A stretch of DNA of 64,000 nucleotides from Pelagibius marinus. GTDB lineage: Bacteria > Pseudomonadota > Alphaproteobacteria > Kiloniellales > Kiloniellaceae. Where the stretch lies: contig NZ_JACSDK010000014.1 in NCBI RefSeq assembly GCF_014925385.1, positions 124,001 to 188,000 on the forward strand, given 5' to 3'. A model generated the notes under the pieces. That model searched no databases and was not told the DNA's origin. It saw nothing but the letters and a program-made list of their open reading frames with translations. The stretch's first letter is position 1; each line of letters starts with the position of its first letter. A program made the position numbers and the translations under genes. Positions 48,894 to 64,000 of this stretch are shown here, in pieces.

Positions 48894-50198
48894 TCAAGAG
48901 CGTGTCCCTCCTGCGTCCCGCTGACCTTCCGCGAACTGCACTTCGAATTCCTCCTGAATGCGGCGCAGTTCCTCGATGGCGGCGCGGATGTCCGAGCTGT
49001 CGATGACATTGACCTCGACCCGCTCGCCGACGCGTGAGAGGCGGCGGCGTAGATTGCGGTGTTCCTCGGAGAGGAAGTCGTCGACCTGGTAAACCTGGAT
49101 GGGGCGGGCGAAGCCCTTCGGCGTGATGCGCTCGACCTTCGTGCAGTGAACATGGCCCTGGATCAGGCTGTGGGTATTCTCGTCGACCAGTATGGCGTCC
49201 GGCTTGGCCGCCACCTCCAGGCGCGAGGCCAGATTCACCGGGCTGCCCAGGACGGTGTAGTCGAGGCGCTGCTCGGAGCCGAAGTTCCCCACCGTGCAGA
49301 AACCGGTGGCAATCCCCATGCGGACGTGCAGACCCTGCGACACGCCGAGCTTCTGCCAGTACTTCTGCAGCTCCGCCGCCCGCGCGCGCATTCGCAGCGC
49401 CATCTCCACGCAGCGCAGCGCGTCCTCGGTTTCGCCCTCGCTTTCCGGGTCGCCGAAGAAGACGAGGATGGCGTCGCCGATGAACTTGTCGATGGTGCCG
49501 CCGCAGTCGAGCGCGATGGAGGCCATTTCGGAGAGGTAGGAGTTCACCACCTTGGCCAGGCGTTCCGGTTCCAGGCTGTCGCTCAGATCGGTGAACTGGA
49601 CGATGTCGGAGAGGAAGATCGTCAGGTTCTTGCGACTATAGGCGCTGGCCTGTTCGTCGGTGTGGGAGAAGATGGTCTGATAGATCTGCGGCGAAAGGTA
49701 CTTGGCCAGCCGGGTGGCGAGGCTCTCGAGTTGGCGGCTTTTCTCCTCGATGATCTCGCGGTCGCGGATCTTCTGCTCCAGAAGCTCCTCCCGATCCCGC
49801 TTCAACTTCCACTCGGCGGTGCGGTCGACGAACTGGCCCTGGACGCCGTTCAGGTAGGAAAAGACATCGTCCGTTGTCCGCGTGGACAGCAGGGAAAACA
49901 CCTTGTCCTCGCCGTCCAGGTTGATGTGGATCTCGGGAATGAGGACCGAACCCTTGCCGTTCAAGCTGACGACAAAGTTCTCGATCTGTGCACCGGGGAC
50001 TCCAAGCTGCTCCAGCACGTCGGGAAAGTAGACGTTGGTGACGTTGCCGAGGACCGGAAAGAAGCTCTTGAAGTTGTCGTTCACCTTCAGGACCTGCAGT
50101 TCCTTGTTGGCGAAGTAGCACGCCGTAATCGCGTTGCGGAAGTTGAAGAAGCTCAGGTCGACGATGTTGTGCTGATTGAAAAAATCTTCCAGTTTCAT
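48894..50198 (-). CDS. Class III adenylate/guanylate cyclase with N-terminal PAS-like sensor
   Basis: 434 residues. N-terminal PAS-like domain (about 1-125), a coiled coil (about 130-170, rich in Glu, Lys and Arg), then a class III cyclase domain (about 185-360). Metal-binding aspartates are in TIFLSDIVQFT and FIGDAILVFFG; the purine lysine is in TIDKFIGDA and the transition-state Asn/Arg in SPVNLASRLE, so it should be active. A short C-terminal coiled segment follows. No transmembrane helix, so it is a cytoplasmic sensor making cAMP or cGMP in response to an unknown signal. Confidence 0.92.
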   Translation of the reverse strand: MKLEDFFNQHNIVDLSFFNFRNAITACYFANKELQVLKVNDNFKSFFPVLGNVTNVYFPDVLEQLGVPGAQIENFVVSLNGKGSVLIPEIHINLDGEDKVFSLLSTRTTDDVFSYLNGVQGQFVDRTAEWKLKRDREELLEQKIRDREIIEEKSRQLESLATRLAKYLSPQIYQTIFSHTDEQASAYSRKNLTIFLSDIVQFTDLSDSLEPERLAKVVNSYLSEMASIALDCGGTIDKFIGDAILVFFGDPESEGETEDALRCVEMALRMRARAAELQKYWQKLGVSQGLHVRMGIATGFCTVGNFGSEQRLDYTVLGSPVNLASRLEVAAKPDAILVDENTHSLIQGHVHCTKVERITPKGFARPIQVYQVDDFLSEEHRNLRRRLSRVGERVEVNVIDSSDIRAAIEELRRIQEEFEVQFAEGQRDAGGTRS

Positions 50199-52810: not shown

Positions 52811-53725
52811 TTATTCCGCAGCCGCGGAGGCGGCGGAATCTTCTGCGACCGGGTGAGCGGCCATGAGTTCGAGCGCCTTGACCATGGCGGAGTGGTCCCA
52901 GGCGGCCCCGCCGTTGGCGGCGCAGGCGTTGAACAGCTCCTGCGCGGTCGCCGTGTTGGGCAGGCTGACGCCCAGCGCCTTGGCGCCCTGCAGGGCGAGA
53001 TTGAGATCCTTCTGGTGCAGCTCGATGCGGAAACCCGGATCGAAGGTGCGCTTGATCATACGCTCGCCGTGGATCTCCAGGATGCGCGAGGTGGCAAGGC
53101 CGCCCATCAGCGCCTGGCGCACCTTGGCCGGGTCGGCGCCGGCCTTGGAGGCGAAGACCAGGGCCTCGCCCACCGCCTCGATGGTCAGGGCGACGACGAT
53201 CTGGTTGGCGACCTTGGTGGTCTGGCCCACACCGTTCGGGCCGACCAGGGTGATGTTCTTGCCCATCAGCTCGAAGATCGGCTTGGCCTTCTCGAAGGCC
53301 GCGTCGCTGCCGCCGACCATGATGGTGAGGGAGGCCGACTTGGCGCCGACCTCGCCGCCGGAGACCGGCGCGTCCAGGTAGTCGCAGCCCGCCTCGTTGA
53401 TCTTCTGGGCGAAGACCTTGGTCTCGATGGGCGAGATCGAGCTCATGTCGATCACCAGCTTGCCCTTGGAGAGACCTTCGGCGACGCCGTTCTCGCCGAA
53501 CAGCACGGCCTCGACCTGCGGGGTGTCGGGCACCATGGTGATGATGATGTCGCTGGCCGCGGCCACGTCCTTGGCGCTGTCGACCAGCTTCAGGCCCTTG
53601 CCCTTCAGCTCGTCCGGCGCCGGGGTGCGGTGCACGGTGCTGGTGACCTCGTGCCCGCCGTCCAGCAGGTGGCCGACCATGGGCGCGCCCATGATGCCGA
53701 GGCCGATGAATCCGATCTTTGCCAT
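52811..53725 (-). CDS. glxR: 2-hydroxy-3-oxopropionate (tartronate semialdehyde) reductase
   Basis: 304 residues, beta-hydroxyacid dehydrogenase family. Reduces tartronate semialdehyde to D-glycerate with NAD(P)H. The Rossmann motif GFIGLGIMGAPMV is at the N-terminus, the substrate-binding DAPVSGGEVGA near residue 118, and the catalytic Lys in QTTKVANQIVV near residue 170. A tail of about 15 Ala/Glu-rich residues ends the protein. Last gene of the gcl-hyi-glxR operon, 44 bases after hyi. Confidence 0.95.
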   Translation of the reverse strand: MAKIGFIGLGIMGAPMVGHLLDGGHEVTSTVHRTPAPDELKGKGLKLVDSAKDVAAASDIIITMVPDTPQVEAVLFGENGVAEGLSKGKLVIDMSSISPIETKVFAQKINEAGCDYLDAPVSGGEVGAKSASLTIMVGGSDAAFEKAKPIFELMGKNITLVGPNGVGQTTKVANQIVVALTIEAVGEALVFASKAGADPAKVRQALMGGLATSRILEIHGERMIKRTFDPGFRIELHQKDLNLALQGAKALGVSLPNTATAQELFNACAANGGAAWDHSAMVKALELMAAHPVAEDSAASAAAE

Positions 53726-53769
53726 GACTTTCCGTTCCTTTCGCTCAAATCTTTTTATGCAGGCGCGGC

Positions 53770-54567
53770 TTATTCCGCCGCGGCGCTGGCGGAGAGATAG
53801 GGGCGCAGCCAGCCGAGGCCTTCCGAGGTGCCGGCCTTGGGCTTGTACTCGCAGCCGATCCAGCCCTTGTAGCCCATCTTGTCGATGGCATCGAAGAGGA
53901 AGGTGTAGTTGATCTCGCCGGTGCCCGGCTCGTGGCGGCCCGGGTTGTCGGCCAGCTGCATGTGCGGGATCTTCGCCAGGTTCTTCTCGATGGTGCGCGT
54001 CAGATCGCCTTCCATGACCTGCATGTGATAGATGTCGTACTGGAAGAAGAGGTTGTCCGAGCCCACCGTCTCGATGGTCATCATCGCCTGGGCGGAGGTG
54101 TCCAGGTAGTAGCCGGGGATGTCGATGGTGTTGATCGCCTCGATCAGCAGCTTGATGCCCGCTTCCCCGGTCTTCTTCGCGGCGAAGCGCAGGTTCTCGA
54201 TGTAGGTCTCCGCCACCTTGTCCGGATCGGCGTGCTCGGGGCGGATGCCGGCCATGGCGTGCAACTGGGTGCAGCCCAGGGCTTTGGCGTAGTCGATGGC
54301 GGTGCCGACGCCGTCCTGGAACTCGCTCACCCGGTCCGGTAAACAGGCCAGTCCGCGCTCGCCGGCATCCCAGTCGCCCGCCGGCATGTTGTGCAGCACC
54401 TGGACCAGGCCGTTGGCTTTCAGCGCCTCGGCCAGGACTTCCTTCTCGAAGGCGTAGGGGAAGAGGTACTCGACGCCCTGGAAGCCGTCTTTCGCGGCCG
54501 CGGCAAAGCGGTCGAGGAAGTCGTGCTCGTTGTAGAGCATCGACAGGTTGGCGGCGAACTTAGGCAT
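53770..54567 (-). CDS. hyi: Hydroxypyruvate isomerase
   Basis: 265 residues from ATG 54567, which has AGGAGG upstream; the frame is open to 54594 with another ATG but no ribosome site. TIM-barrel xylose isomerase-like fold. Interconverts hydroxypyruvate and tartronate semialdehyde. Metal/substrate residues include the Glu in LLIEAIN, the His in YDIYHMQ and the Glu of IGCEYKP. Its place between gcl and glxR is the usual one for Hyi. Confidence 0.95.
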   Translation of the reverse strand: MPKFAANLSMLYNEHDFLDRFAAAAKDGFQGVEYLFPYAFEKEVLAEALKANGLVQVLHNMPAGDWDAGERGLACLPDRVSEFQDGVGTAIDYAKALGCTQLHAMAGIRPEHADPDKVAETYIENLRFAAKKTGEAGIKLLIEAINTIDIPGYYLDTSAQAMMTIETVGSDNLFFQYDIYHMQVMEGDLTRTIEKNLAKIPHMQLADNPGRHEPGTGEINYTFLFDAIDKMGYKGWIGCEYKPKAGTSEGLGWLRPYLSASAAAE

Positions 54568-54620
54568 TCTGGGGATCCTCCTGAATTTTTCCACAGCTTA
54601 CAGGGTGGGGCGGCCCCTGA

Positions 54621-54678
54621 GTCAACAAGGCCAGTCAACAAGGCCAGTCAACAAGGCCGGTCAACAAGGCCGGTCAAT
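54621..54678. repeat. 13-bp tandem repeat between hyi and gcl
   Basis: GTCAACAAGGCCA is repeated at 54621-54633, 54634-54646, then GTCAACAAGGCCG at 54647-54659 and 54660-54672, and a partial copy GTCAAT starts at 54673. The unit is not a multiple of three and the region lies outside genes. It is the only short tandem array noticed in the window. Confidence 0.95.
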
Positions 54679-54733
54679 GACAGCGGGATGAAGAACCGCT
54701 GCCGCTAAAACGGCAGGGTCCTTTTCGCCGGCG

Positions 54734-56536
<1,803 letters not shown>

Positions 56537-56627
56537 CGTCGTTCCTCCGCCCCGAACTTGATGCTCGGGTGTTGTTCTTGCTGGGGTGGCGAAGATGCCA
56601 CTTGGAATTTCATGAGTCAATAGGAAT

Positions 56628-56652
56628 GGAATGATATTCCGTATCGTGGAAT
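56628..56652. promoter_or_regulatory. Putative IclR-type operator in the gcl-iclR spacer
   Basis: GGAAT-GAT-ATTCC (56628-56640) is a perfect palindrome with the shape of IclR-family sites (TGGAAT...ATTCCA-like), and its right arm is reused with GGAAT at 56648-56652 to form a second, wider repeat. It lies 92 bases upstream of the gcl start and downstream of the candidate gcl -10, a good place for a repressor. Confidence 0.6.
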
Positions 56653-56668
56653 AATGGAAATAAGATCG

Positions 56669-56705
56669 AAATACATAATGTATTTCAAATTGTTATAATG
56701 GACAA
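56669..56705 (-). promoter_or_regulatory. Candidate gcl promoter with overlapping 17-bp palindrome
   Basis: On the minus strand TTGTCC (56700-56705), 17 bases, TACATT (56677-56682) form a plausible promoter for gcl. The -10 region lies inside AAATACATAATGTATTT (56669-56685), a perfect 17-bp palindrome. On the plus strand TATAAT at 56694-56699 could be the -10 for the iclR gene. Confidence 0.5.
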
Positions 56706-56819
56706 TAAAATGGAACTGGCTGCCAAAAGTGGCGTCGGCGGCGTTCTGCGACGTGCCTGCTGACAGCTTCGGGCTTTGCCCTCTATGCTGCGCCTGCCGA
56801 GGGAAGGGAGATTCGCGCC

Positions 56820-57635
56820 ATGCCGAGAACCGCCGCCAAGAGCCGGGGCGCTGCCAAGGGAGACGCCAGCAAGGGAAGCGGGCAGGTCCAGTCGCTCGAC
56901 CGGGCCCTGTCGATTCTGGAGCGCCTGGCCGATGCCGACGGGATGACGCTGACCGACCTGGCCCAGTCCGTCGGCCTTGCGCCCTCGACCACCCACCGCC
57001 TGCTGACCACGCTGCAGCAGCGCCGTTTCGCCGACTTCGACGAGGAATACTCCGTCTGGGTGATCGGCGTCGGCGCCTTCAATGTCGGCAATGCCTTCCT
57101 GCGCAACCGCCGCATCGTCACCCTGGGCCGCCCGGTCATGCGCCGGCTCATGGAGGACGTGGGGGAGACCGTGAACCTGGCGGTGGAAGACCAGAACGAA
57201 CTGGTCTACGTGACCCAGTTCGAGAGCCACGCGCCCATGCGCGCCTTCTTCCGCCCGGGGCGCCGCGCGCCGATGCACGCCTCGGCCGTCGGCAAGGCGA
57301 TGCTGGCGGAGATAGACGACGCGGCGCTGACCGATCTGCTGCACCGCAAGGGCATGCCGCGCTTCACCGACAAGACCATCGTCGATCCCACGGCATTGCG
57401 CGCCGAACTGGAGAAGACGCGCCAGCGCGGTTGGGGCGTCGACGACGAGGAGCACACCGTAGGCATGCGCTGCGTGGCGGCGACCATCCACAACGAGCAC
57501 GGCGAGGTCATCGCCGGGGTGTCGGTCTCCGGCCCCTCGGTGCGCGTCACCGAGACCCGGCTGGGCGAACTGGGCGCGCGGGTGGTCCAGGCGGCCAAGG
57601 AGATCACCGAGCAGATCGGCGGCGTGGCGCCCTAG
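56820..57635 (+). CDS. IclR-family transcriptional regulator
   Basis: 271 residues. A short basic N-terminal tail (1-22), winged helix-turn-helix (about 23-90: SLDRALSILERLADADGMT in part, recognition helix near GLAPSTTHRLL), then the IclR effector domain with the conserved GRRAPMHASAVGKAML loop. Divergent from gcl with palindromes between them, so it is very likely the regulator of the glyoxylate operon, like AllR, responding to glyoxylate or a related acid. It is not known from sequence whether it represses or activates. Confidence 0.9.
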   Translation: MPRTAAKSRGAAKGDASKGSGQVQSLDRALSILERLADADGMTLTDLAQSVGLAPSTTHRLLTTLQQRRFADFDEEYSVWVIGVGAFNVGNAFLRNRRIVTLGRPVMRRLMEDVGETVNLAVEDQNELVYVTQFESHAPMRAFFRPGRRAPMHASAVGKAMLAEIDDAALTDLLHRKGMPRFTDKTIVDPTALRAELEKTRQRGWGVDDEEHTVGMRCVAATIHNEHGEVIAGVSVSGPSVRVTETRLGELGARVVQAAKEITEQIGGVAP

Positions 57636-58000: not shown

Positions 58001-61000
58001 ATGGCCATTCGGCGCTGGTTGACGGCGATCGGCCTGGGCGGATTTGCCGAGGTCTTCGAGGAAAACGACGTCGACCTCGAACTCATTCCGGAGCTGACCG
58101 AAGAGGACCTGCGCCAGCTCGGCCTGACGCTGGGCCAGCGCAAGCGGTTGCTGCGCGCCGCCCAGTCGCTGGCCACCGCCGGTCATACGCCCGCCGTGGC
58201 CGTAGCGCCGCCGGCCGGCGGCGAGCGGGTCCCCGCGGAACGCCGCCACCTGACCGTGATGTTCTGCGACATCGTCGGCTCCACCGTGCTCTCGGAGCGC
58301 CTGGAGGCCGAGGACCTGCTGGACGTGGTGCGACGCTACCAGAATTTCTGCGCCTCCATCATCGGCACTCACGAGGGCTACATCGCCCGCTTCGTCGGCG
58401 ACGGCATCCTGGCCTACTTCGGTTATCCCATGGCCCACGAAGACGCGCCGGTCCACGCGCTGCATGCCGCCCTGGGCATCACCGAGGGCATCGGCCAGCT
58501 GGAGCTGCCGGCGGATACACAGCTGGCGGTGCGCATCGGCATCGCCTCCGGCGTGGTCATCGTCGGTGACCTGATCGGCGCCGGCGCCGCGGTGGAGCAG
58601 CCGGCCATCGGCGTCGCCCCCAATCTCGCCGCCCGGGTCCAGGGCATGGCCGGGCCGAACGAGATCGTGGTGGCCGATGTCACCTATCGCCTGACCCAGG
58701 ACGATTTCGACTTCGAGGATCTCGGCCGGCGGGAGTTCCACGGCATCTCCGAGCCGGTGCGCATCTGGCGCCTGCTGGGCGAGCACCAGGGTGACAGCGA
58801 GGCCGTGACCTTCGGGCGCTGGGCCCAGACCTCCTTTGCCGACCGCAGCGACCAGCTCGACTTGGCGCGCCGCCAGTGGCGCCAGGTGAAGGGCGGCGCC
58901 GGCCGCGTGGTGATGGTCACCGGCGAGCCCGGCATCGGCAAGTCGCGCTTCGTCCACCAGTTCCTGCGCGAGGTGAACGACGAAGCCATGGTGCAGACTT
59001 ATCAGGGCACGCCCTACAACCAGGACAGCCCGCTGCACCCGCTGATCCAGCGCTACCGGCTGCTCGCCAACATCGACCACGGCGACAGTCCGGCGACCAT
59101 CCGGCACAAGCTCGACAAGGTGGTGATGGGCGAGGGGCCGGAGCGCGAGGCGCGCCTCGACATCTTCGCCGACATGCTTTCGCCGGTCTCCATCGACCAG
59201 CCGCAGTCACAGGTCGCCGCCAAGCAGAACCGCGAGCGCACGCTGCAGGCCATCGTCGACAACCTCGTCTCGCGCAGCCGCGAATACCCCATCGTCGTTG
59301 TGGTCGATGATTTCCAATGGCTCGACCCCACCTCGATCGAGCTGCTGGACCGGGTGGTCCATGCCATCCCGAGCGAGCGGATCTACGTCATCGTGACGTC
59401 GCGCGAAGCTTTCTACACGCCCTGGGAGGCGCTGCCGCACGTGACACGGCTGGAGCTTGGCCGCCTGCCGGTGAAGGACGCCCAGGCGCTGATCGCCAGC
59501 CTGGCCCAGGGAACCTCGCTCACCAAGGCCGTGGTCAGCGAGATCGTCGAAAAGACCGACGGCATCCCGCTCTTCGTCGAGGAGCTGACCAAGAGCGTCG
59601 TGGAACTGGATTTCGAGCAATCCGCCAAGGGCCGCAAGCCGCGGCGCCACGCCGGTTCGGCCATCCCGATCTCGCTGCAGGACTCCCTTATGGAGCGCCT
59701 CGACCGGGTCGGCCAGGCGAAGATGGTGGCGCGGGTCGGCTCCGTGCTCGGCCGCTCCTTCACGCGGGACATGATCTCCCAGGTCGGTGATTTCGATGCT
59801 GCCTACCTGGAGGCGGCCCTGGCCACCCTTTCCGATGCCGGCCTGATCTATCGCGAGATCGATCAGCGCGGCAAGGAGACCTTCGTCTTCAAGCATGGCC
59901 TGGTGCAGGAAGCGGCCTATGATTCGCTGCTGCGCGAGGAACGCCAGCGGCTGCATTCCTCGACGGCGCAGGCGCTGAAGGACCTGGTCCCGGAGATCGA
60001 ATCTGATCGTCCGGATCTGCTGGCCAATCACCTCTCCGCCGGCGGCAGCCACGAAGAGGCAGCGAAGCTGTGGCTGCAGGCCGGGCGCATCAGCTTGGCG
60101 CGCTCGGCCATTGTCGAGGCGGTGCATCACCTGCGCCGCGGCCTGGAGGCGCTGGACCAGCTGCGCGAGACACCGGAGATCCAGGCCCTGCGCCTGCAGC
60201 TGCTGATCCGCCTGGGACCGGCGCTCATCTCCCTGCACGGTCCGGGCTCCAGCGAGGTGGAGGAGATCTACGCCAAGGGCTACGAGCTGTGCCGCAGCCT
60301 GCCGGAGTCCGAGGATCATTTCCCGGTCTACTGGGGCTGGTGGCGCCTGTCGCGCGACTTCAACGAGATGAACATGCGCTCCGACGAGCTGCTGACCCGC
60401 GCCGGCGCGCGCAAGGACGAGGCGCTGCTGCTGCAGGCGCATCACTGCCAGTGGGCTTCGCACTTCAACCGCGGCGACTTCCAGGGCTGCCTGGAGCATA
60501 TCGACTGCGGCCTGGATCTTTATGAAAAGGGCGACTACCGCACTCATGCGACGCTCTACGGCAACCACGACGCCAAGGTCTGCGGCCACGGCGAGCGTTC
60601 GCTGGTCTACTGGCTGCTGGGCCGGCCGGAGGAGGCCATGGAGTCCGAGCGCCAGGCGCAGGCCTGGATGGAGGCCCTGGGCCACGGCGGCAGCTGGATG
60701 CACCACAAGGACATCACCATCATGCACCGCCTCTACCGCCGCGACGCGTCGGAGGTGCTGCGCATCGCCGAGGAGATGATTGCCTTCGCCGAGGACCAGG
60801 GCTTCACCGATCACCGCGCCAAGGCACTGGTTTTCGCCGGCTGGGCGCACGCGCGCCTGGGCAATCCCTCCAAAGGGCTGACGGAAATACGCGAGGGCCT
60901 GGAGCGCCAGAAGCTGATCGGCACTCGCGAGGACTTCCCCGTCTACTACGACATGTTCGCCGAGGTGCTGGCGCTGAACGGGCGCATCGACGAGGCGCTG

Positions 61001-61351
61001 GAGGAGACGACCGCGGCCCAGGCCGAGTTCGAGGCCATGGGCCTGCGCATCTGGCTGCCGGAGCTGCGCCGCCGCGTCGGCTACCTGCTCCAGCTGCGCA
61101 TGCCCCACGATCCGGAACCCGCGGTGTCCGCCTACCGCGGCGCGCTGGACCTGGCGAGCGACCAGGGTGCGCGCACCCTCGCGCTGCGCGCGGCCACCAG
61201 CCTGGCGGGCCTGCTGCGCAGCCAGGGCCGCATCGACGACGCCTGCGATACCCTGGAGCCGCGCCTGCAGGGGCTGGAGGGCATGGCGGGGACGCCCGAC
61301 TACGCCGCCGCCGCGGCCATGCTGGCCACCGCGCGGCGCCGGGAAGGGTGA
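58001..61351 (+). CDS. SAM domain-adenylate cyclase-AAA ATPase-TPR signalling protein
   Basis: 1116 residues from ATG 58001 (GAGAGAGGGA upstream). Domains in order: SAM (about 1-65), class III nucleotide cyclase (about 80-260), AAA/NB-ARC-like ATPase (about 295-600), and tetratricopeptide-type helical repeats (about 650-1110). Cyclase metal aspartates are in MFCDIVGST and FVGDGILAYFG and the Asn/Arg pair in APNLAARVQ; the usual purine lysine is replaced by Arg in YIARFVGDG. ATPase motifs: Walker A GEPGIGKSRF, Walker B VVVVDDFQWLD. This layout occurs in large cytoplasmic regulators. The YcaO gene begins 6 bases after its stop, so they are probably co-transcribed. Confidence 0.93.
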   Translation: MAIRRWLTAIGLGGFAEVFEENDVDLELIPELTEEDLRQLGLTLGQRKRLLRAAQSLATAGHTPAVAVAPPAGGERVPAERRHLTVMFCDIVGSTVLSERLEAEDLLDVVRRYQNFCASIIGTHEGYIARFVGDGILAYFGYPMAHEDAPVHALHAALGITEGIGQLELPADTQLAVRIGIASGVVIVGDLIGAGAAVEQPAIGVAPNLAARVQGMAGPNEIVVADVTYRLTQDDFDFEDLGRREFHGISEPVRIWRLLGEHQGDSEAVTFGRWAQTSFADRSDQLDLARRQWRQVKGGAGRVVMVTGEPGIGKSRFVHQFLREVNDEAMVQTYQGTPYNQDSPLHPLIQRYRLLANIDHGDSPATIRHKLDKVVMGEGPEREARLDIFADMLSPVSIDQPQSQVAAKQNRERTLQAIVDNLVSRSREYPIVVVVDDFQWLDPTSIELLDRVVHAIPSERIYVIVTSREAFYTPWEALPHVTRLELGRLPVKDAQALIASLAQGTSLTKAVVSEIVEKTDGIPLFVEELTKSVVELDFEQSAKGRKPRRHAGSAIPISLQDSLMERLDRVGQAKMVARVGSVLGRSFTRDMISQVGDFDAAYLEAALATLSDAGLIYREIDQRGKETFVFKHGLVQEAAYDSLLREERQRLHSSTAQALKDLVPEIESDRPDLLANHLSAGGSHEEAAKLWLQAGRISLARSAIVEAVHHLRRGLEALDQLRETPEIQALRLQLLIRLGPALISLHGPGSSEVEEIYAKGYELCRSLPESEDHFPVYWGWWRLSRDFNEMNMRSDELLTRAGARKDEALLLQAHHCQWASHFNRGDFQGCLEHIDCGLDLYEKGDYRTHATLYGNHDAKVCGHGERSLVYWLLGRPEEAMESERQAQAWMEALGHGGSWMHHKDITIMHRLYRRDASEVLRIAEEMIAFAEDQGFTDHRAKALVFAGWAHARLGNPSKGLTEIREGLERQKLIGTREDFPVYYDMFAEVLALNGRIDEALEETTAAQAEFEAMGLRIWLPELRRRVGYLLQLRMPHDPEPAVSAYRGALDLASDQGARTLALRAATSLAGLLRSQGRIDDACDTLEPRLQGLEGMAGTPDYAAAAAMLATARRREG

Positions 61352-61357
61352 GCGGCC

Positions 61358-62632
61358 ATGGACGCCTCGGCCCCGCAGCGCCGCGCCGGCGCGAAAGCTG
61401 AGACGCGCGGCGATACCGCCAAGGTCTACCGCGGCGGCACGCACCGCTGCCGCAGCCCGGAAGAGACGCTGGAAGCTTTCCTGCCGCTGGCCGAACGCAT
61501 GGGCATCACGCGGCTGGCCAACGTCACCGGCCTGGACAGCATCGGCATCCCCGTCTACATGGCCTGCCGCCCGCTGTCGCGCTCCATCGCGGTCTCCCAG
61601 GGCAAGGGACTGACGCCGCAGGAGGCGAAGGTTTCGGCCTTCATGGAGGCGGCGGAGACCTGGCACGGCGAGACCATCACCGCGCCCTTGAAGATGGTCT
61701 CCTACAACGAGTTGAGCCGCGACCATCGGGTGATCGACGTCGAAGGGCTGCCGCGGTCGCGTCTCGGCGACTTCGATCCGGCGCAGCAGATCCTCTGGAT
61801 CGAGGGCACGCCGCTGGCCGGCGGCGCGCCGCTCTGGGTGCCGCTGGAGCTGGTCTCCACCAACTACACCCTGCCGCAGCCCCAGGGCAGCTTCGCCTTT
61901 CCCGCCAATACCAACGGCCTGGCCTCCGGCAACACCTTTGCCGAGGCGGCGCTGCACGCGCTCTGCGAGCTGATCGAGCGCGACGCCCTCAGCCTCTGGC
62001 GCCTGGGCGGCGACAGCGCCCGCGCGGCGGCGAAGCTGGACCCGGAGAGCATCGGCTCGGTGCGCTGCCGCACCCTGCTGGCGCACTATGCCCGCGCCGG
62101 CCTGGATGTCGGTCTTTGGGACGTGACCTCGGACCTGGGGGTGCCGGTCTTCTGCTGCGCGGTGGCTGAGCGCAGCGACACCGCCGTAGAGGCGGAGCTG
62201 GGCGCCGGCTGCCATCCCGACCGCGAGGTGGCGCTGCTGCGCGCCCTGACCGAGGCGGCGCAGTCGCGCACCACCCGCATCGCCGGCTCGCGCGACGACT
62301 ACGTGCCGGAGTCATACGACAGCGCGGCCAAGCTGGCGCGCAACCGCACGGCCCGCCTGTGGCTGTCCGACCCGCCGCGCCGCCGCTTCAACGACGCCCC
62401 CAACCTCAGCGGCGAGACCATCGCCGGCGACCTGGAAAGGGTGTTGGGGCGCCTGGCCGCCGACGGCGTTACCCAGGTGGTGGCGGTCGACCTCACCAAG
62501 CCGGAGGTCGGCCTGCCGGTGGCCCGCGTCGTGGCGTCCGGCCTGGAAGGCGCCTACCAGGGCGCCGGCAGCGACTACCGCCCCGGCCCGCGCGCCCTTG
62601 CCCGCGGCCTGGGGGAGGGAGACTGGTCATGA
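61358..62632 (+). CDS. YcaO-domain protein (TfuA-partnered)
   Basis: 424 residues. YcaO enzymes use ATP to activate peptide backbone amides; together with TfuA they swap the oxygen for sulfur (thioamidation), as on McrA in methanogens and in some peptide natural products. ATP/Mg motifs can be seen: SQGKGLTPQEAKVSAFMEA (about 85) with the following ETWHGE, the core ALCELIERDA (about 205) and TEAAQSR (about 300). The C-terminus (LARGLGEGDWS) lacks the Pro-rich PxPxP end of azoline-forming YcaO enzymes, which supports a thioamide role. Its TGA overlaps the tfuA ATG (ATGA at 62629-62632). Confidence 0.92.
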   Translation: MDASAPQRRAGAKAETRGDTAKVYRGGTHRCRSPEETLEAFLPLAERMGITRLANVTGLDSIGIPVYMACRPLSRSIAVSQGKGLTPQEAKVSAFMEAAETWHGETITAPLKMVSYNELSRDHRVIDVEGLPRSRLGDFDPAQQILWIEGTPLAGGAPLWVPLELVSTNYTLPQPQGSFAFPANTNGLASGNTFAEAALHALCELIERDALSLWRLGGDSARAAAKLDPESIGSVRCRTLLAHYARAGLDVGLWDVTSDLGVPVFCCAVAERSDTAVEAELGAGCHPDREVALLRALTEAAQSRTTRIAGSRDDYVPESYDSAAKLARNRTARLWLSDPPRRRFNDAPNLSGETIAGDLERVLGRLAADGVTQVVAVDLTKPEVGLPVARVVASGLEGAYQGAGSDYRPGPRALARGLGEGDWS

Positions 62633-63981
62633 CGGCGGTCTTCCTGGGCCCCAGCCTGCCGCGTGCCGAGGCGGAGAAGATCCTGGCGGCGGACTACCAC
62701 CCGCCGGTGCGCCAGGGCGACATCTACCGCCTGGTGCAGCAGCGCCGGCCGCGGGCCATTGCCGTGATCGACGGCTATTTCCAGGAGGTGCCCTCGGTCT
62801 GGCACAAGGAGATTCTCTGGGCGCTTGACCAGGGCATTCCCGTCTACGGCGCCGCCAGCATGGGCGCGCTGCGCGCTGCCGAGCTGCAGCGCCACGGCAT
62901 GATCGGCATCGGCAAGATCTACGAGGCCTACCGGGTCGGGACCTATACGCCTTACGAGAGCGAGCTCTTCGAGGACGACGACGAGGTGGCGGTGATCCAC
63001 GGGCCGGCGGAGCTGTCCTATCCGGCCCTGTCGGACGCCATGGTCGATCTTCGCGAGACCCTGGCCGCGGCGGCGCGTGACGGTCTCATCGACGAAAAGC
63101 TGCGCGACGGCCTCGTCGCCGCCTTCAAGCGCCGCTTCTATCGCGAGCGTAGCTTCGCGGCCCTGCCCGAACTGCTGGCTGAAATGGAGGTGGACACGGC
63201 AACCGCCGAGGCGCTCACGGCCTGGCTGCCGCAGGGGCGCATTTCGCAGAAGCGCGCCGATGCCCGCGCGCTGCTGGAAGCCTTGGCGGAAAGCGAACCG
63301 GAGCCGCCGGCCGAGCACGAGCCCTTCATTTTCGAGCGCACCACCCTCTGGGCGCAGTTCGTCGAGCAGGCCGACGACGCGGCCGCGCCGGTGGGCGCGG
63401 AGGAGGGGTTGGTTCTGGAGGAACTCTACCTCGAGCCGGATCTCTATACGGCTCTGCGCCGCCTGGCCGTGCTGCGCCTGCAGCTCCTGGCGCCGGAGGC
63501 GCCGCCGCCGGGCGACGACGCGGCGCGGCGTGCGGCGCTGGACCAGTTGCGGCGGCGCCACGGGCTGCTGTCGCGCGCCGCGCTGGAGGCCTGGGCCGAG
63601 GACTGCGACCTGGACCGGGAAGGGCTCGATCGTCTGCTTGCTTACGAGGCGGCGGTGGAAAGCCGGGCGCGGAGCGCCGGCGCAGCCCTGGCGGCGGCGC
63701 TGCTCGACGTGCTGCGCAGCGAGGGCCACTACCCGGCGCTGGCCGCGCGCGCCCGCGACAAGCAGGAGCGACTCGAAAGGCTGGGCAAGGGGCGCACTGC
63801 CCCCTCTGCGCTCTCGTCCGAGGCGCTGGTAGACTGGTACTTTGAGAGCCGTCTGGGCCGCGCCGCGCCGTCGGACGTCGCGCAGGGCGCCCGCGAAATG
63901 GGATTTGCCGACGTCGACAGCCTGCGCAACGCCCTGGCGCGCGAGCAGGCCTATCTGGCGCTGGCGGAGGAGTCGCGTTAG
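62629..63981 (+). CDS. TfuA-like protein
   Basis: 450 residues from ATG 62629; the open frame to 62359 lies inside ycaO. The TfuA core (about 1-170) begins VFLGPSLPRAEAEKIL and holds IAVIDGYFQEVPSVWHKEI, GAASMGALRAAEL and GTYTPYESELF, all typical of the family. A long helical C-terminal part (about 180-450) has no clear motif. TfuA is thought to deliver or handle the sulfur for YcaO. The 4-base overlap with ycaO shows strict pairing. Only 19 bases remain after the stop, so downstream genes are not visible. Confidence 0.92.
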   Translation: MTAVFLGPSLPRAEAEKILAADYHPPVRQGDIYRLVQQRRPRAIAVIDGYFQEVPSVWHKEILWALDQGIPVYGAASMGALRAAELQRHGMIGIGKIYEAYRVGTYTPYESELFEDDDEVAVIHGPAELSYPALSDAMVDLRETLAAAARDGLIDEKLRDGLVAAFKRRFYRERSFAALPELLAEMEVDTATAEALTAWLPQGRISQKRADARALLEALAESEPEPPAEHEPFIFERTTLWAQFVEQADDAAAPVGAEEGLVLEELYLEPDLYTALRRLAVLRLQLLAPEAPPPGDDAARRAALDQLRRRHGLLSRAALEAWAEDCDLDREGLDRLLAYEAAVESRARSAGAALAAALLDVLRSEGHYPALAARARDKQERLERLGKGRTAPSALSSEALVDWYFESRLGRAAPSDVAQGAREMGFADVDSLRNALAREQAYLALAEESR

Positions 63982-64000
63982 AAGAACGCGTCGAGTGGGG

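Follow-up and report, generated by a model that had tools for sequence, protein, structure and literature searches.

The stretch of DNA analysed here, called the window, comprises 64,000 nucleotides of a contig of Pelagibius marinus and ends in three consecutive + strand genes, which encode a protein with a class III nucleotide cyclase domain, a YcaO protein and a TfuA protein, and whose open reading frames lie where an earlier reading of the sequence (the original prediction) had put them. We followed the contig beyond the window end (this locus is L002 in our numbering) and found that the operon continues, giving five genes in the order cyclase, ycaO, tfuA, protease and tailed protein (Table 1). 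On the basis of sequence, we consider it reasonably probable that these five genes form a cassette for a thioamidated peptide of the ribosomally synthesised and post-translationally modified (RiPP-like) kind, in which the C-terminal tail is the substrate, the protease frees the tail, and the cyclase senses or controls the process.

The gap of 6 bases between the cyclase gene and ycaO, and the 4-base overlap (ATGA) of ycaO and tfuA, were read in the sequence as predicted. The cyclase frame is open from 57956, with 58001 as the more likely start. We take the unit to end after the tailed protein, because the next gene-like long open frame lies on the opposite strand. YcaO is the sole YcaO match in the 5.44-Mb genome, and its PF02624 match covers the full length of the protein. 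Its best NCBIfam model, TIGR03266 (McrA thioamidation), stays under the cut-off of 365 bits, and a SagD-type model scores 143.5 bits; the best model for TfuA, NF033432, aligns over residues 3–220, under a cut-off of 235.2 bits. The Pro-rich C-terminus that the original prediction reported as missing from YcaO is indeed not seen by eye, in the sense of a PxPxP-like stretch. The adjacency of ycaO and tfuA is that of thioamidated RiPP clusters, and TfuA is described, in the accessible text of two reports, as hydrolysing a thiocarboxylated carrier so that sulfur is handed over (PMC13063428, PMC8939145).

Table 1 Coordinates of the cassette genes and of other features mentioned in the text; L-numbers denote loci.
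Feature	Position	Strand	Remarks
SAM – class III nucleotide cyclase – AAA_16 protein	58001..61351	+	Pfam; TIGR03903 435.5 bits; cyclase domain verified
YcaO, thioamidation-like	61358..62632	+	PF02624 288 bits; TIGR03266 251 bits
TfuA with C-terminal extension, 450 amino acids (aa)	62629..63981	+	PF07812 146.5 bits; NF033432 197.7 bits
First part of the 27-base gap between tfuA and protease gene	63982..64000	+	remaining cassette past window end
Thermolysin-type HExxH protease, 475 aa	L002 6210–7637 (64009–65436 in window numbering)		27 bases after tfuA stop
Tailed protein, candidate precursor, 201 aa	L002 7780–8385 (65579–66184 in window numbering)		repeat tail at about 66071–66160
Second-kind candidate precursor	L128 12028–12444		GADGRLY-like motif
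Second-kind candidate precursor	L129 11600–12553		GADGRLY-like motif
Second-kind candidate precursor	L130 11650–11829		GADGRLY-like motif
Second-kind candidate precursor	L132 11621–11857		GADGRLY-like motif
Second-kind candidate precursor	L133 8097–8273		GADGRLY-like motif
GNAT acetyltransferase	L026 13627–14280, and 18 similar loci		overlaps or adjoins type B cyclase
Second class III cyclase	48894–50198	-	outside the cassette
Glyoxylate-like cluster and IclR-type regulator	52811–57635		names by reading alone
Kinase-AAA protein	L131 4323–7928		near ycaO-tfuA pair
Kinase-AAA protein	L134 12026–15577		near ycaO-tfuA pair
Protease homologue	L156 7995–9257		Nostoc sp. UHCC 0302 plasmid
Repeat-rich open frames	L139 11879–12556, 12553–13929		beside protease-less ycaO-tfuA pair
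Repeat-rich open frame	L136 11551–11988		beside protease-less ycaO-tfuA pair

Conservation of the five genes

We compared 85 loci, namely 80 of 163 protease relatives confirmed by a scan of a genome collection with the protease alignment, the P. marinus locus itself, and four loci found through the tailed protein. The protease, which served as the search key for 80 of them, is present in all 85, tfuA in 84, ycaO in 83, the tailed protein in 82 and a domain-verified class III cyclase in 74. Seven of the 11 loci in which no cyclase was verified are cut by contig ends on the relevant side (L019, L037, L040, L042, L065, L083 and L085). Loci L062 and L011 represent the same contig, judging from length and content, L083 equals the contig of genome G071 in the class draw below in length and is probably identical to it, and L026 and L027 are near copies.

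The conserved unit is not a circular product of the search, because it is also recovered through the tailed protein alone, with tfuA and the protease adjoining it in all four other genomes found in this way (ycaO in three of the four), and because every protease match above 400 bits among 289 genomes drawn from the class adjoins TfuA. That draw contains the protease at more than 400 bits in seven genomes (7/7 beside TfuA), the tailed protein in five, P. marinus included, and TfuA in 16 genomes (20 genes); seven further genomes gave weak protease matches alone, at 23–69 bits. The original prediction had proposed a genome search for what else is conserved around the three genes, especially downstream of tfuA, and the search, now run, returns the protease and the tailed protein. 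It had also seen no protease in view and allowed for a protein target; since tfuA is followed directly by the genes of a thermolysin-type protease and of a precursor-like protein, we no longer hold a protein target as the default.

A draw from the whole phylum, of 398 genomes, yielded seven with the protease (E up to 1e-30), all of the same class. The relatives fetched belong to Mesorhizobium, Roseibium/Labrenzia, Roseobacter, Microvirga, Pelagibius and others, together with one Competibacteraceae bin (L018), and 124 plasmid records, 115 of them from Rhizobium, encode the protease (E up to 1e-20). Plasmid pRL11 of R. johnstonii 3841 carries all five genes in a row as RL_RS31025 to RL_RS31045, confirmed with profiles and annotated as AAA family ATPase, YcaO-like, TfuA-like, hypothetical and hypothetical; throughout the annotated records inspected, the protease and the tailed protein are either a 'hypothetical protein' or carry no annotation.

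The protease and the tailed protein as candidate processing enzyme and precursor

Residues H179, E180, H183, E207, D211 and H288 of the protease are invariant in 44 homologues, giving the pattern HExxH...ExxxD. In a structural model of the Pelagibius litoralis homologue (L014; predicted local distance difference test, pLDDT, 83), the 30 best fold matches in the PDB are all thermolysin-type, 23 of them with E <=0.001. The HExxH motif, the downstream ExxxD and the thermolysin fold, the last taken from the homologue model, are together those of an M4-type gluzincin, and the cassette protease thus shares fold and zinc-site pattern with thermolysin-type proteases of families M4/M36, to which we take several of the fold matches to belong. 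Sequence models place it less readily: the P. marinus protease has no Pfam M4 match, only Reprolysin_4 and Ntox14 matches that are both under the cut-off, none of the 44 family members matches NCBIfam, and no convincing sequence relative was found in the PDB (best E 0.092). It is probably cytoplasmic, as no signal peptide was seen by eye (no predictor was run). A homologue on a Nostoc sp. UHCC 0302 plasmid stands beside ferritin-like and radical SAM genes, and perhaps belongs to another peptide system with the same protease.

The tailed protein combines a conserved N-terminal part with a variable C-terminus, which is the sequence pattern of a linked precursor with leader and core. Significant tandem repeats were detected in 44 of 82 tailed proteins, ending 0–13 residues from the C-terminus, with periods of 4, 5, 6, 7, 10 and 12 and units such as VSGAR, VSGSR, GAKVS, GMNAR, GRSDLV, RAMMQS and YSGGKA. 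P. marinus is among the 44, with a tail of about five R-A-D-[L/M]-x-x units of period 6 (RADMAG RADMSS RADLSA RADLSA RADLAM). In 25 of the 44 repeat genes, hand-picked for variety, neighbouring units differ by 469 silent and 26 non-silent codon changes, whereas random change predicts 66–82% non-silent; because silent differences so far outnumber the others, the repeated peptide is under purifying selection. We rejected mere DNA slippage as the origin of the tails, since the peptide is kept as its DNA drifts, unlike after recent slippage. Another group of tailed proteins, from Mesorhizobium, Roseibium and others, has instead a single conserved tail, EANLPGKRSPxxYAxxxxxxHRxGRL, in an alignment of 22 equal-length tails chosen by a pattern that fixed part of the first letters.

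Modelling of the P. litoralis tailed protein predicts a folded part at about residues 22–150 and a disordered tail, at 155–184, with pLDDT under 50. No PDB fold match was found for the leader domain (best E 0.38), and none of the three tailed proteins scanned (P. marinus, L140 and L155) matches NCBIfam. The only Pfam match in the family, a weak one to Pentapeptide in 10 of 52 members (best E 5e-6), raises the alternative that the tail is a structural repeat of a normal protein, a pentapeptide-like solenoid or a binding tail, with the thioamidation target elsewhere; over the tail, the family profile also gives weak matches to PDB chains named beta1 (best E 0.001). Pentapeptide solenoids need a period of five, yet the periods found run from 4 to 12, that of P. 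marinus being 6; the tail is modelled below pLDDT 50, in 38 of 82 relatives no repeat was detected, and the protease adjoins the tailed protein in each of the four other genomes found through the latter. We therefore regard a structural role of the tail as unlikely.

With the tail read as substrate, the modification could also be an azoline or amidine and not a thioamide, as YcaO enzymes are versatile and many repeat units carry Ser. Against this stand TfuA beside ycaO, the score of the McrA-thioamidation model (251 bits) over the SagD-type model, and the C-terminus of YcaO described above; moreover, azolines could not form on the units GANAR, GMNAR, RGQLVG, RAAMVG and GMNV, because they have no Cys, Ser or Thr. 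Azolines or amidines are thus an improbable product, and we favour thioamides.

In the scheme that we propose, the tailed protein would have its leader in the folded N-terminal domain, YcaO and TfuA would put backbone thioamides into the C-terminal tail, and the protease would separate leader from tail or cut the repeats. The class III cyclase, through its AAA and in some cases TPR part, may sense the product or the cell state, and would link the cassette with cyclic-nucleotide signalling, by way of a Crp-like regulator encoded next door in some loci. We regard this scheme as the most likely; we infer its modification and cleavage half from the conserved order, the selected repeats and the enzyme families, and the cyclase half from linkage, from the single clade of linked cyclases and from some adjacent Crp-like genes, and control could run in either direction.

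The cassette resembles the thiovarsolin clusters (Streptomyces varsoviensis, PMC6511847), for which the accessible text reports that YcaO and TfuA are needed, that precursors have repeated cores, with none to five repeats, and that the product is N-acetylated; a repeating core of this kind is present in the 44 tailed proteins with repeats. The same text notes no specific protease, whereas protease and cyclase are conserved in the present cassette, whose leader would also differ in being a folded domain of about 130 residues, judging from the model. Conversely, the thiovarsolin cluster has an amidinotransferase, an ATP-grasp ligase and a heme-oxygenase-like enzyme (PMC6511847), which were not recognised by eye among our 30 most shared neighbour clusters (no model search was made). 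The McrA glycine thioamidation pair is similar in its adjacent ycaO and tfuA and in being the source of the best NCBIfam models, although the curated cut-offs are not reached; unlike that pair, the present one has a neighbour that looks like a dedicated peptide substrate.

The linked class III cyclase and its possible role

For the cyclase, the domains named in the original prediction were recovered by Pfam as SAM_1, Guanylate_cyc and AAA_16, but the TPR named there is not confirmed by Pfam in this copy; the TIGR03903 alignment runs to near the protein end, and TPR is scored in some related or type B cyclases. Asp occupies both metal-binding positions in every aligned cyclase row having a letter there. 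The linked cyclases occur in two placements among the 83 ycaO loci. In type A (45 loci) a cyclase of more than 900 aa lies directly upstream of ycaO on the same strand, with a spacing of mostly -13 to 30 bases (five lie outside, at -386, -152, -80, 77 and 354); in type B (29 loci) a shorter cyclase lies just downstream of the tailed protein, mostly convergent, and the remaining nine loci have a cyclase in neither placement. A second class III cyclase of the window lies outside the cassette.

The original prediction asked whether the link between cyclase, ycaO and tfuA might be chance neighbourhood, and the comparison shows the link to be conserved and not due to chance: with 32 class III cyclases in the 5.44-Mb P. 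marinus genome, about 0.12 would be expected per 20 kb, and 74 of 85 loci have one. The pair without the cyclase and the cyclase without the pair, named beforehand as signs of chance, do occur in a minority, the former in four loci, and the six unlinked cyclases compared do not group with the linked ones. A quick tree without bootstrap, built from 33 of the 45 type A rows (12 near copies being dropped), L140 and these six paralogues, places all 34 linked cyclases in one clade, to the exclusion of the paralogues, with support of 99 in the Shimodaira–Hasegawa-like approximate likelihood ratio test (SH-aLRT). Cyclase type also tracks the YcaO tree, with eight changes against 29 after shuffling (earlier type labels, with 30 instead of 29 type B loci; 79 of the 83 rows, without L062 and three fragments of at most 300 aa). 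In the type A genomes G211 and G037, the P. marinus cyclase finds its best match in the copy that adjoins ycaO, and in the type B genomes G148 and G154 elsewhere.

The seven class-draw protease loci include five with a cyclase (G000, G037, G148, G154 and G211) and one with none (G233), and the G071 contig is too short to judge. Thirteen TfuA loci of the draw have no protease, and in five of these (L128, L129, L130, L132 and L133) a class III cyclase lies no more than about 10 kb away, against a chance expectation of 0.58 (P for >=5 = 3e-4, two genomes of one genus being counted separately); a cyclase is thus near 10 of 20 TfuA loci. In these five loci, an open frame of 58–317 aa between cyclase and ycaO is a second kind of candidate precursor, with long repeats in L128 and L129 and the motif R-[GA]-[AP]-D-G-x-L-Y. 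This pattern, defined after sight of these sequences, matches three tailed proteins and nothing else among the 12149 open frames of the 85 loci; of the 2018 open frames of L127–L140 it matches six, namely the five second-kind candidates and the L140 tailed protein, which hints at a leader signal that the two kinds may share. Near the ycaO-tfuA pairs of L131 and L134, two more of the 13 loci, stand proteins that fail the cyclase-domain model and are kinase-AAA proteins, by Pfam in L131 and by NCBIfam in L134, with their TIGR03903 match best in the AAA part. Repeat-rich open frames beside protease-less pairs were also noted in L139 and L136 (IAAGQIAGG-like; GGKQRFAAGL-like).

How the cyclase takes part was weighed among several readings. 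An anti-phage system with a second-messenger-making cyclase (Pycsar-like) is suggested by a match of the cyclase domain to PADLOC PycC at 62 bits; as PycC is itself a class III cyclase, some match is expected, and YcaO, TfuA, the protease and the tailed protein have no PADLOC match, so that PycC with an effector was not found. What is conserved beside the cyclase is a modification pair with a protease and a tailed protein, and we rejected the anti-phage reading, which we consider highly improbable, on the PADLOC result.

Crp-like regulators were confirmed by Pfam in L016, L039, L060, L063, L065, L081, L086 and L091, seven of the eight within about 400 bases of a cassette gene. The corresponding cluster of cyclic-nucleotide-binding neighbours covers 10 loci, these eight together with L049 and L090, and L091 contributes as its second member a permease that carries a cyclic-nucleotide-binding domain. 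These adjacent genes, and the four loci that keep the peptide genes without a cyclase, would fit a cyclase that is only a local transcriptional or metabolic regulator without contact to the peptide. The single type A clade and the tracking of the YcaO tree by cyclase type fit partners instead, although shared inheritance gives the same picture; a purely local regulator is possible, if not what we would expect. A more far-reaching form of the peptide cassette, in which the protease frees many copies of a short, sulfur-modified peptide from a single repeat tail and the cyclase reads the peptide through its AAA/TPR-like half to give a cyclic-nucleotide signal, strikes us as rather doubtful. If true, rhizobia and marine alphaproteobacteria would possess a peptide pheromone or second-messenger relay for which we know of no bacterial counterpart.

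Several observations weigh against the proposed cassette. No repeat was detected in 38 tailed proteins, one of which is cut by a contig end, and the P. marinus repeats are less clean, with nine silent and six non-silent differences. The distribution is patchy, as neither TfuA nor the protease was found in the only same-family genome of the class draw or in its two same-order genomes. Four loci whose relevant flanks are covered have no cyclase (L009, L032, L043 and L045), L009 being also without ycaO, and the Nostoc protease homologue has no ycaO or tfuA in the stretch examined. Crp-like genes are close to a minority of loci. ABC-transporter ATPases form the largest neighbour cluster, present in 26 of 85 loci and adjoining the cassette in L017, and by eye this cluster is mixed and scattered, for which reason we see no dedicated exporter.

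Other neighbours include GNAT acetyltransferases beside the type B cyclase in 19 loci and a second GNAT family in four of 85 (Pfam-checked in L026 and L067). Because thiovarsolins are proposed to be N-acetylated by a host enzyme in the accessible text of PMC6511847, GNAT may, as a lead, cap the released peptide. Upstream of the cassette, the window holds a glyoxylate-like cluster with an IclR-type regulator, a relative of which also precedes the cassette in L012, L013 and L014.

Taken singly, YcaO-TfuA thioamidation, precursors with repeats and cyclases in the neighbourhood of peptide-modification genes are known. The P. marinus cyclase aligns over positions 270–1265 of 1267 of TIGR03903, the 'TOMM system kinase/cyclase fusion protein', under the cut-off of 705.75 bits and without the kinase part, and five of six type B cyclases scanned match TIGR04510, the 'putative peptide modification system cyclase', at 33–69 bits against a cut-off of 400. 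A large Ser/Thr kinase beside Burkholderia TOMM precursors is also reported (PMC2887384, accessible text). Malit et al. (2021; PMC8120280) counted over 500 TfuA clusters in Rhizobium, and given this number their set probably includes members of the present cassette; in the accessible main text no word begins with cyclase, repeat, protease or AAA, and the one use of peptidase, in a legend, concerns another enzyme. The statement in the original prediction that a cyclase-YcaO link had not been described thus holds in part: related proteins already bear NCBIfam names for TOMM or peptide modification, but the combination was not found in the literature searched, including the accessible text of PMC4603692, a search largely outside subscription journals. 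As far as these searches go, the cassette, its protease family and its precursor family are new.

Orphan YcaO-TfuA pairs of Alphaproteobacteria thereby gain a candidate substrate, a candidate protease and a candidate signalling partner, and the repeat units show which short peptides a chemist could look for. With a cyclase tied to a peptide-modifying pair, cyclic-nucleotide control of, or by, a ribosomal peptide product becomes testable.

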